Positions 55,933 through 59,205 of a stretch of DNA of 64,000 nt are shown here, piece by piece. The position numbers and the translations under genes were made by a program. This DNA comes from Microbacterium arborescens (GTDB lineage Bacteria > Actinomycetota > Actinomycetes > Actinomycetales > Microbacteriaceae), in NCBI RefSeq assembly GCF_030369635.1, contig NZ_CP128474.1, forward strand, positions 1,488,001-1,552,000. The letters are read 5' to 3'. Below the pieces are notes generated by a model. That model was given only the letters and a program-made list of their open reading frames with translations, did no database searches and was not told the origin of the DNA. Numbering within the stretch: position 1 is the first letter of the stretch; the number at the start of each line of letters is the position of its first letter.

Positions 55933-57006
55933 ATGGACCTCCCCGTGCCGTTCCAGATCATCGCGCTCGTCATTCTGGTTCTCGTGCTCGTCGCCGACCT
56001 GCTCATCATCGTCAAGCGGCCCCACATCCCGTCGCCGAAGGAATCGACGCTGTGGGTGCTGTTCTACGTCGCCCTCGCGCTGGTGTTCGCCGGCATCCTC
56101 TGGGCGGTCGCCGACGTCGAGCATGCCGGACAGTTCGTCGCAGGATGGCTGACGGAGTACAGCCTGTCGATCGACAACCTGTTCGTCTTCGTGCTGATCA
56201 TGAGCCAGTTCTCGGTTCCGCGGCGGTACCAGCAGAAGGTGCTGATGGTGGGCATCATCATCGCTCTGGTGCTGCGGGGGCTCTTCATCCTCGCGGGCGC
56301 GGCGATCATCGAGCAGTTCAGCTGGGTGTTCTACATCTTCGGCGCCTTCCTCATCTACACCGCGATCAAGCAGGCGCTGCCCGAGGGTGATCACGACGAC
56401 GACGTGAAGAAGGAGAGCTTCCTCGTCCGCATCATCCGGCGCACGGTCGACATCTCCGACGAGTACGACGGGCCCAAGGTCCGCACGGTCGTCAACGGCA
56501 AGCGGATGTTCACCCCGATGATCATCGTGTTCGTGGCCATCGGCGTCACCGACCTGCTGTTCGCCCTCGACTCGATCCCCGCGATCTTCGGCATCACGCA
56601 GGATCCGTTCCTCGTGTTCACGGCGAACATCTTCGCGCTCATGGGCTTGCGCCAGCTCTACTTCCTGCTCGGCGATCTGCTCGACCGGCTCAAGTATCTG
56701 CACTACGGCATCGCGTTCATCCTCGCCTTCATCGGCGTGAAGCTCATCCTCCACGCCATGCACGAGAACGAGCTCGCGTTCATCAACGGCGGCGAGGGGA
56801 TCGCCTGGGCGCCGGAGATCTCGACCTGGGTGTCGCTCGGGGTCATCGTCGGCGCCATGCTCGTCGCAACCGTCGCGAGCCTCATCGCCGCCCGTCGCGA
56901 TGCCCGCGCCGCCGGCCCCACCGAAGCAGCTGCCGCGGTGGCCGGCGAGCAGGGCACGCCCCCGACGGTCGAGCAGCCCGATGCGCGCGAGGACGAGCGC
57001 CCGTGA
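55933..57006 (+). CDS. TerC-family integral membrane protein
   Basis: ATG 55933 gives 357 residues with about nine hydrophobic helices. The TerC hallmark Glu-Tyr-Ser-Leu-Ser-Ile-Asp-Asn-Leu-Phe-Val-Phe (about 75-86) and a second acidic in-membrane motif, Phe-Ala-Leu-Asp-Ser-Ile-Pro-Ala-Ile-Phe-Gly, are intact. These acidic residues are thought to bind metal. Family members have been linked to manganese efflux during protein secretion and to tellurite resistance. A central charged loop (about 155-195) and a Glu/Ala-rich tail are cytoplasmic. It precedes the leu leader. Confidence 0.9.
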   Translation: MDLPVPFQIIALVILVLVLVADLLIIVKRPHIPSPKESTLWVLFYVALALVFAGILWAVADVEHAGQFVAGWLTEYSLSIDNLFVFVLIMSQFSVPRRYQQKVLMVGIIIALVLRGLFILAGAAIIEQFSWVFYIFGAFLIYTAIKQALPEGDHDDDVKKESFLVRIIRRTVDISDEYDGPKVRTVVNGKRMFTPMIIVFVAIGVTDLLFALDSIPAIFGITQDPFLVFTANIFALMGLRQLYFLLGDLLDRLKYLHYGIAFILAFIGVKLILHAMHENELAFINGGEGIAWAPEISTWVSLGVIVGAMLVATVASLIAARRDARAAGPTEAAAAVAGEQGTPPTVEQPDAREDERP

Positions 57007-57032
57007 CCGGACGTCGCCGCCGCACCCGGTGG

Positions 57033-57038
57033 TATTCT
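57033..57038 (+). promoter_or_regulatory. -10 box of the leuC leader transcript
   Basis: TATTCT ends exactly 6 nt before the ATG of a 16-codon frame at 57045. The transcript would start at that ATG. Confidence 0.55.
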
Positions 57039-57044
57039 GACCGC

Positions 57045-57095
57045 ATGCGGATCGCTCGCCTTCTCCTTAGCGGCCGCGGCGAGGTCTCGTTCTGA
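57045..57095 (+). CDS. Putative leucine leader peptide (16 aa)
   Basis: The frame encodes MRIARLLLSGRGEVSF and ends in TGA at 57093-57095. Three consecutive Leu codons (CTT-CTC-CTT, 57060-57068) lie at positions 6-8; CTT is uncommon in this GC-rich region. The ATG follows a -10 box by 6 nt, so it would be read from a leaderless mRNA, and leuC begins 63 nt after the TGA. A ribosome slowed at these codons by low leucyl-tRNA is the expected sensor. The peptide itself probably has no function. Confidence 0.6.
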   Translation: MRIARLLLSGRGEVSF

Positions 57096-57149
57096 GCCCC
57101 TCCTCGCCGCGGAGTCCGTCGTGGGCTTGATCCCGGTTCGCAAGGAGAA
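57060..57149 (+). promoter_or_regulatory. Putative leucine-responsive attenuator of leuCD
   Basis: The Leu-codon run TTCTCCTT (57061-57068) is the exact 8-nt complement of the leuC Shine-Dalgarno region AAGGAGAA (57142-57149). Between them CCGCGGCGAGG (57074-57084) and CCTCGCCGCGG (57102-57112) form an 11-bp hairpin that would bring the two together. A ribosome stalled on the Leu codons would cover the anti-Shine-Dalgarno and reach into the left arm, freeing leuC translation. Rapid passage would let the sequester form. This is a model read from sequence. Confidence 0.55.
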
Positions 57150-57157
57150 CGAAACCC

Positions 57158-58606
57158 ATGAGCATTCCCACCCCTCCCGAGCGCCCGCGCACCCTGGCCG
57201 AGAAGGTCTGGGACGACCACCTCGTCGTCAAGGGTGAAGACGGTCAGCCCGACCTGATCTACATCGACCTGCACCTCGTGCACGAGGTCACCAGCCCGCA
57301 GGCCTTCGACGGCCTGCGTGCGGAAGGGCGTCCGCTGCGGCGGCTCGATCTCACGATCGCCACCGAGGACCACAACACCCCGACCCTCGACATCGACAAG
57401 CCGATCGCCGACCTCACGAGCCGGACGCAGATCGAGACCTTGCGCCGCAACGCCGAGGAGTTCGGCGTGCGCCTGCACTCGCTCGGCGACGCCGAGCAGG
57501 GGATCGTGCACGTCGTCGGCCCCCAGCTCGGGCTCACGATGCCCGGCATCACGGTGGTGTGCGGCGACAGCCACACGTCGACCCACGGCGCATTCGGCGC
57601 GATGGCCTTCGGCATCGGCACCAGCGAGGTCGAACACGTCATGGCGACGCAGACCCTGCCGCTGAAGCCGTTCAAGACCATGGCCATCACGGTCGAGGGC
57701 GAGCTGAAGGAAGGCGTGACGGCGAAGGACATCATCCTCGCCGTCATCGCGAAGATCGGCACCAACGGCGGGCAGGGCTACGTGCTCGAGTACCGCGGCA
57801 GCGCCATTCGCGCACTCTCGATGGAGGGCCGCATGACGATGTGCAACATGTCGATCGAGGCGGGTGCCCGCGCGGGGATGGTGGCGCCCGACGACATCAC
57901 CTTCGAGTACGTCAAGGGCCGGCCGCACGCACCCACCGGACAGGACTGGGACGACGCCGTGGCCTACTGGCGCACGCTCCCGAGCGATGAAGGCGCCGTC
58001 TACGACGCCGAGATCTTCATCGACGCGGCCGAACTCGAGCCGTTCGTCACGTGGGGCACGAACCCCGGCCAGGGGGTCTCGCTCAGTTCGACGGTGCCGT
58101 CGCCGGACGATTTCAGCGACCCGAACGAGAAAGCCGCCGCTGAGCGTGCGCTCGAGTACATGGACCTGCGCCCGGGGACTCCGCTCAAGGAGATCCCCGT
58201 CGACGCGGTCTTCATGGGGTCGTGCACCAACAGCCGGATCGAGGATCTGCGCGCGTTCGCGTCGATCATCGAGGGCCGGACGAAGGCGGAGGGCGTCCGC
58301 GTCATGGTCGTTCCGGGCTCGGCCCGCGTCCGGCTCGAGGCCGAGGCCGAAGGGCTCGACAGGGTCTTCACCGAGTTCGGTGCCGAATGGCGCTTCGCCG
58401 GCTGCTCGATGTGCCTGGGCATGAACCCCGATCAGCTCGCCCCGGGAGAGCGCTGCGCGTCGACCAGCAACCGCAACTTCGAAGGACGCCAGGGCAAGGG
58501 CGGTCGCACCCACCTGGTGTCGCCGCTCGTGGCCGCCGCCACCGCCGTGCTCGGGCGCCTCGCGTCACCGAGTGATCTGCCCGCACGCGAGAAGGTCGAG
58601 GCCTGA
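57158..58606 (+). CDS. leuC: 3-isopropylmalate dehydratase, large subunit
   Basis: The 482-residue aconitase-family subunit isomerises 2- to 3-isopropylmalate with LeuD. The 4Fe-4S ligands are in Gly-Ser-Cys-Thr-Asn-Ser-Arg and Gly-Cys-Ser-Met-Cys-Leu-Gly-Met-Asn. Substrate motifs Glu-Asp-His-Asn-Thr-Pro-Thr and [10 protein letters not shown] are present. AAGGAG lies 10 nt before the ATG and may be masked by the leader described upstream. leuD starts 2 nt after its stop. Confidence 0.97.
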
Positions 58607-58608
58607 AC

Positions 58609-59205
58609 ATGGAGAAGTTCGAGACCCACACCGGTGTCGTCGCGCCCCTCAAGCGTTCCGCGGTCGACACCGACCAGATCATCCCCGCCGTATACCTGAA
58701 GCGTGTCACGAAGACCGGTTTCGAGGACGCGCTCTTCGCCAACTGGCGGCAGGACCCCGAGTTCGTGCTGAACCAGCCGGTCTTCTCCGGCGCCTCGATC
58801 CTCGTGGCCGGACCCGACTTCGGCACCGGATCGAGCCGCGAGCACGCCGTGTGGGCGTTGCGCGACTACGGCTTCCGCGTCGTGCTCGCACCGAAGTTCG
58901 CCGACATCTTCCGCGGCAATGCGGGCAAGCAGGGGCTCCTCGCGGGCATCATCTCCGAGAGCGACCGCGAGGCGATCTGGGCTGCCGTCGACGCGCAGCC
59001 CGGCGTGCAGATGACCGTCGACCTCGAGGCGCGCGTCGCCTCTCTCGGCGACCTCCGAGTCGCCTTCGAGATCGACGATTACACTCGTTGGAGGCTCCTC
59101 GAGGGACTCGATGACATCGGGCTCACGCTGCGCAATGAAGAGGCGATCGCGCAGTTCGAGGCGCGCCGCGAGGCGTGGCGACCTCGGACACTCCCCGTCG
59201 CGTAG
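58609..59205 (+). CDS. leuD: 3-isopropylmalate dehydratase, small subunit
   Basis: The 198-residue swivel-domain subunit has Asp-Thr-Asp-Gln-Ile-Ile-Pro-Ala near the start and [13 protein letters not shown], the usual substrate-binding loop. It pairs with LeuC and follows it by two bases. murA starts 72 bp later, a conserved order in related actinobacteria. Confidence 0.97.

Follow-up and report, generated by a model that had tools for sequence, protein, structure and literature searches.

Classical leader peptides of amino acid genes act on transcription. In the leuL-type attenuator of Escherichia coli the Leu codons of the leader serve as the sensor and the switch works through an intrinsic terminator. 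For mycobacteria, polycysteine leaderless short open reading frames (ORFs) are said to have been described by Canestrari in 2020. Like the leader treated here they are leaderless and carry a run of codons for the sensed amino acid, which is cysteine in their case; the likeness is one of description alone, and the accessible part of a related source points the same way (PMC4633059).

The closest described system is the LEU element, which is found in front of leuA in most Actinobacteria and which, as far as the available text of the paper goes, comprises an ORF with a run of Leu codons, a base stem between these codons and the Shine-Dalgarno (SD) sequence of leuA, a pseudoknot and an alternative hairpin (PMC1262725). 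The target genes named in these parts of the paper are leuA operons and one transposase gene only; its authors were sceptical of a riboswitch as well as of leader-peptide attenuation, preferred a binding protein and left the mechanism open (Seliverstov et al. 2005; PMC1262725). Mutants of the leuA leader of Streptomyces coelicolor are said there not to fit classical attenuation, and mutations of the Leu codons are credited with 'some effect' in one of the accessible passages and with no influence in another (PMC1262725). The leuA leader LeuL1 of Streptomyces lividans (MRFGLLLLSCRGEGL) is leaderless and lacks a typical terminator according to the excerpted source (PMC8079986). In Corynebacterium glutamicum and C. 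diphtheriae, leuA leader peptides with four consecutive Leu residues are treated as attenuators; they differ from the leader described below in their target, leuA, and SD pairing is absent from the portions of their descriptions at hand (PMC4046766; PMC5784534).

The present analysis concerns a leader in front of leuC-leuD in a 64,000-nucleotide stretch of the Microbacterium arborescens genome (the window). It resembles the LEU element, compared by its text description in the accessible part of the paper, in the Leu-run leader ORF, the base stem between Leu codons and SD, and the internal pseudoknot; it is unlike the LEU element of leuA in standing before leuC-leuD, which is read as a difference of location, not of structure (PMC1262725). 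A first-pass annotation had regarded the design, with regulatory codons that are themselves the sequester on a leaderless leader-peptide mRNA, as unusually compact. The same pairing of Leu codons with the SD has been known for leuA since 2005 as part of the LEU element, and leaderless transcription is known for LeuL1 of S. lividans, at least from the excerpted source. In the part of the relevant literature that was reachable, a search found no description of a LEU element before leuC or leuB. The design is already known, and the placements before leuC and leuB appear to be undescribed.

Architecture of the leuC leader

The leader follows a TerC/Alx family gene ending at 57006, and its features are collected in Table 1. 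Coordinates and translation of the 16-codon frame agree with the first-pass annotation, and its two further structural claims, an exact complementarity of the Leu-codon segment to the leuC SD (8 nt) and a perfect 11-bp hairpin between the paired segments, were found as described. It had overlooked a pseudoknot in which the hairpin loop pairs with the 3' flank, and also a second, homologous copy of the element which precedes leuA in the same genome (leader MRFGRLLLLSRRDESSF*).

Table 1 Features of the leuC leader region in the window
Feature	Position	Strand	Basis
Extended −10 promoter element, TGG-TATTCT	57030..57038	+	TATTCT 57033-57038, TG 57030-57031; sequence inference
Leader ORF, 16 codons, MRIARLLLSGRGEVSF*, predicted leaderless	57045..57095	+	translation; ATG at 57045, 6-nt gap from TATTCT
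Leu codons CTT-CTC-CTT, proposed sensor	57060..57068	+	in frame
Anti-SD strand of the base stem, TTCTCCTT	57061-57068	+	exact complement of 57142-57149
Hairpin 5' arm, 11 bp	57074..57084	+	perfect complement of 57102-57112
Pseudoknot loop strand AGCCC	57095..57099	+	complement of 57123-57127; shares last base of the stop codon
Hairpin 3' arm	57102..57112	+	pairs with 57074-57084
Pseudoknot 3' strand GGGCT	57123..57127	+	complement of 57095-57099
leuC SD AAGGAGAA, 3' strand of the base stem	57142..57149	+	8-nt exact complement of TTCTCCTT
leuC, 3-isopropylmalate dehydratase large subunit	57158..58606	+	TIGR00170, 738.3 bits, cut-off 560.25
leuD, small subunit	58609..59205	+	TIGR00171, 193.4 bits, cut-off 116.25

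The hairpin stem is the longest perfect inverted repeat of the leader, and an equally long one arose in 2 of 500 shuffles; an equally long complement of the SD was present in 46 of 2000 dinucleotide-shuffled leaders. Both helices appear in the minimum-energy fold (−53.4 kcal/mol, z −1.99), with 6 of 200 shuffles equally stable. The signal of this single sequence is modest; it is conservation which decides that the leader is real and which rules out chance as its sole explanation.

A sigma-70 promoter scan requiring a −35 box gave no match; the promoter is taken to be of the extended −10 type. No Rfam family reached its gathering threshold in the leader region, and a relaxed search returned two sub-threshold matches on the opposite strand (E 3 and 5.5). 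The leuD gene lies 2 nt 3' of leuC and is presumably co-transcribed with it.

Conservation within Microbacterium and evidence for translation

A leuC gene was found in 58 of the 59 Microbacterium genomes scanned. Fifty-nine loci were fetched and 58 parsed; the excluded one (L059) is a more distant leuC-like match, 64% identical, in one of the 58 genomes. The leader is present at all 58 parsed loci, and also at 8/8 of the closest named leuC loci, which belong to Microbacterium. In the genus alignment (51 rows, seven near-duplicates of the 58 being omitted) the 10 predicted pairs of the hairpin show one broken cell and 2 pairs changed on both sides, and the best-placed hairpin has on average 9.94 to 9.98 of 10 bases paired, mostly through invariance. 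RNAalifold returned the hairpin as the only structure; in many rows of this alignment the SD is misaligned. In the wider family, 53 leuC loci (one per genus, handles G059-G142) and 46 leuA loci were studied in detail besides the 58 of the genus. The leuC leader is real and conserved, and very probably functional. Two leuA loci, L220 and L084, in which the core pattern was not found, were dropped from the leuA sets.

The promoter and the start codon keep a fixed distance. A TANNNT hexamer precedes the start codon of the genus leaders by 6 nt in 50 cases and by 7 nt in 8, and a TANNNK hexamer stands 6 or 7 nt before it in 58/58 genus leuC, 52/53 family leuC and 42/44 family leuA leaders. As the start codons in these counts had been picked with a Leu-run criterion, the frame test was repeated without it, taking the first ATG or GTG 6-7 nt past the hexamer and ignoring the peptide. 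Relative to the hairpin the start then falls in the same frame at 151 of 152 loci (58/58 genus leuC, 52/52 family leuC, 41/42 leuA), three loci without a start so placed standing outside the 152. Lengths from start to hairpin change by steps of 3, and those from hairpin to gene occupy all three phases. The earlier proposal of a leaderless, translated leader is compatible with this conservation of frame and −10 spacing. Transcription is accordingly predicted from the sequence to begin at the leader ATG or beside it, in which case the leader would be translated without a Shine-Dalgarno sequence.

A run of at least three Leu codons is present in 56/58 genus and 46/53 family leuC leaders, and the remaining leaders have 2; L182, one of the 53, was counted in the wrong frame and has a run of 3 when read correctly. 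The rare Leu codon CTT is in strong excess at 57060-57068 and in the homologous leaders: in the genus it makes up 106 of 199 leader Leu codons (53%), against 9 of 245 (3.7%) in eight genes of the window. This genus excess is not explained by SD pairing, since the matched-partner and synonymous-redraw tests given below are null there; sensing through a rare codon, or other demands, are possible causes.

Pairing of the base stem and the pseudoknot

In the matched-partner test, duplex energies of own and of exchanged partners were compared by permutation, uncorrected for relatedness. For the base stem of leuC in 53 genera, own partners reach −10.41 and exchanged ones −9.60, with 5 of 2000 permutations as good, and for leuA (n = 40) the values are −12.09 and −10.74, with 1 of 5000 as good. 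The leuA sets for base stem and openness hold 40 of 44 loci, because the chosen gene start of four lay too near the hairpin. Within the genus no matched-partner excess was found for leuC (972 of 2000 permutations as good). Base-shuffled leaders pair worse with their own SD both in the family (−7.70 vs −10.41) and in the genus (−8.47 vs −10.76). When the Leu codons were redrawn synonymously, pairing fell in the family leaders from −10.62 to −8.83; in the genus leaders, redrawn at genomic usage, it was unweakened (own −11.21, redrawn −11.20). Part of the complementarity between Leu codons and SD comes free, CTC and CTT being anti-SD-like by nature, and the SD pairing in the genus is under no visible pairwise constraint. 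The comparison of relatives proposed by the first-pass annotation thus bore out conserved Leu codons and hairpin; the SD complementarity proved partner-matched across the family and in leuA, but not within the genus.

The pseudoknot shows partner-matching in every set, the permutations as good out of 5000 numbering 31 for family leuC, 1 for genus leuC, 59 for family leuA, 0 for 42 other leuA elements plus paralogues, and 12 for 11 leuB elements. The loop reads GGCC in most relatives; striking single cases are CCGACC/GGTCGG at L153 and AGGGCA/TGCCCT at L186.

In 23 genomes the leuC and leuA elements are more alike within the same genome (0.846) than between different genomes (0.814), with 1 of 2000 permutations as good. 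This may reflect a partner that both elements have in common, a recent copying event or descent from the same ancestor.

Distribution in Actinobacteria

Two covariance models were used, R1 built from 32 genus rows and one leuA element, and R2 from Microbacteriaceae elements. R1 matches in 144 of 150 Microbacteriaceae genomes, and among the 150 matches listed 101 belong to leuA, 49 to leuC and 0 to other places. Rescanning 80 of the family genomes with R2 gave, among 141 matches listed, 79 at leuA, 46 at leuC, 4 at leuA paralogues and 12 others. Over the two lists of matches together, leuC is preceded by the element in 95 of the 129 leuC-bearing Microbacteriaceae genomes counted, a total which excludes 17 further leuC-bearing genomes that were scanned with R1 only and had no leuC match among those listed. 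In 34 of the 129, about a quarter and all of them rescanned, leuC has no detected element. At one of seven element-less loci inspected (L201, genome G075) the region upstream of leuC keeps an apparent decayed remnant, CTTAGCCGCCGCGACGAG, which suggests loss of the element.

Seven of the 12 other R2 matches in the family were inspected (L126-L132), the five left out having E values above 0.03: four stand before leuA paralogues, one before an MFS transporter gene, and two look false. A leuA paralogue, 50-56% identical, carries its own LEU element in some Microbacteriaceae (L126, L127, L129, L130, L133), and at L126, L129, L130 and L133 the 5' arm of the hairpin reads GCCAC instead of GCCGC. The match before the MFS gene (PF07690; L128 in genome G166, 36.2 bits with R2) has the LEU-like leader MVMRQLLLRRDGS*, and the gene is possibly a leucine-linked transporter. 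The weak second matches L131, L132, L140, L143 and L145 were rejected as false, since neither sequence comparison nor frame reading revealed a leucine gene there.

Among 80 named leuC loci the element occurs in 22, all of them among the 32 assigned to Microbacteriaceae, including Agromyces, Leifsonia, Cryobacterium, Leucobacter, Rathayibacter, Agreia and Glaciibacter; Terrimesophilobacter and Rhodoluna were counted as members of this family, which we take them to be. It was found at 0 of the other 48 named loci. At the level of the order a model matches in 88 of 119 genomes, and all 22 best matches inspected stand before leuA. In the 80 of these genomes that belong to other families of the order, 79 of them with leuC, 0 of the 87 matches listed lie within 1500 bases before leuC.

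At the level of the class a model matches in 127 of 148 genomes. Best matches at 24 loci fall before leuA (21), before leuB (2) and at a contig end (1), and 20 further chosen matches comprise 12 at leuA, 7 at leuB (one already counted) and 1 without an assigned gene; no downstream gene was found for L226, at the contig end, and L269. One of the leuA leaders found by R2, at L232, encodes a peptide identical to LeuL1 (MRFGLLLLSCRGEGL). As far as the excerpted source allows a comparison, LeuL1 shares with the elements treated here a Leu run followed by S-C/G-R-G/D-E, and differs in its target, leuA, and in a run of 4 Leu against 3 in the window leader (PMC8079986).

In all, 11 distinct LEU-like elements (L135, L137, L139, L234, L242/L250, L252, L258, L259, L261, L262 and L263) stand before leuB in 11 genomes, three of them from the order. 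The cut-off of NCBIfam NF002898 (3-isopropylmalate dehydrogenase) was passed by 4/4 leuB genes tested; the others were identified by comparison with one of these four, and L139 by reading. Hairpin and pseudoknot are retained, the pseudoknots being mostly long, and the leader peptides mix Val, Ile and Leu, as in MRHALILRCRGGA, MARQLVILSSRGEFR and MRSVFVLIDCRGEA. That these leaders keep the structure and yet mix the three residues suggests that codon identity matters. In some loci a small ORF lies between the element and leuB. Several elements are far from leuB, and masking of the SD is therefore perhaps not common to all copies.

Mechanism of regulation

We consider it reasonably probable that the LEU element before leuC-leuD acts by translational attenuation, a waiting ribosome covering the anti-SD strand. 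In the free RNA the Leu codons would pair with the leuC SD, the hairpin and the loop pseudoknot would hold the space between them, and leuC would be off. Under a shortage of charged tRNA-Leu, a ribosome would wait on CTT-CTC-CTT and cover the anti-SD strand together with part of the 5' arm of the hairpin, so that the SD is left free and leuC is switched on. With plentiful leucine the ribosome would move on to the stop codon, which lies in the hairpin loop; the Leu codons, left behind it, could pair with the SD again. Translation of the leader, its sensing of and response to leucine and the direction of the switch are all inferred here.

A model of SD openness, in which bases covered by a ribosome of assumed footprint are kept unpaired and pseudoknots stay outside the energies, is compatible with such a switch, in which the sensing codons are also the mask. 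Predicted openness for the free, Leu-stalled and stop-positioned states is 0.01, 0.37 and 0.02 in the window, with means of 0.25, 0.45 and 0.26 for 53 family leuC loci and 0.19, 0.45 and 0.24 for 40 leuA loci. The contrast is small among the 58 genus leuC loci (0.27, 0.36 and 0.34), only 37 of which have a value at the stop below the stalled one.

The base stem may instead be locked or opened by a regulatory protein whose receptor is the pseudoknot, with the leader peptide playing a secondary part, as the authors of the 2005 study preferred in the available text; we regard this as unlikely. It would account for hairpin arms that are almost invariant beyond the needs of pairing, for the likeness of leuC and leuA elements in the same genome, as a shared partner would favour, and for the leuA Leu-codon mutations said, in the accessible passages, to lack the expected effect. 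The conserved frame, start spacing and Leu runs speak against it, as do the leuB copies, in which Leu runs are exchanged for mixtures of Val, Ile and Leu, a change for which a site serving protein binding alone offers no reason.

Control at the level of transcription, for instance Rho-dependent, would mean that transcripts end ahead of leuC when the leader is untranslated or unblocked, and that a ribosome at the Leu codons alters this outcome; it is distinctly improbable in our view. It would follow the classical amino acid leader peptides and make a regulator gene unnecessary. Unlike the leuL type of E. coli, the leader of the window has 0 intrinsic-terminator-like sites in 56900-57300, and a base stem placed on the SD points to initiation and argues against attenuation of transcription. 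A constitutively translated upstream ORF whose stop delivers ribosomes to leuC, independently of leucine, would agree with the proposal, in the available part of its source, that leader ORFs raise downstream translation via re-initiation (PMC4833913), but it is very improbable, because the distance from stop to leuC is 62 nt in the window and variable among relatives, and such an ORF would give no account of the hairpin, the pseudoknot or the Leu run.

Implications for the leucine regulon

If translational attenuation is the correct reading, a change of codons would alter the sensor and the mask at once, a double role that may account for the poor fit of the older leuA mutants with attenuation. 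More tentatively, at somewhat less than an even chance, the actinobacterial leucine regulon may be controlled by parallel leaderless switches of leader peptide and pseudoknot, placed at leuA in most genomes sampled, at leuC in Microbacteriaceae and at leuB in several other families, each with a codon run tuned to its gene (Leu at leuA and leuC, Val/Ile/Leu at leuB) and with sensor and SD mask combined at leuA and leuC.

The second and third target genes, in which the pseudoknot is kept and the codons differ, provide natural controls with which the mechanism of the LEU element can be tested. The leuC-leuD genes of Microbacterium and its relatives would join those for which a leucine-responsive leader is predicted, and the leuC leader would offer a compact translational switch without a terminator.
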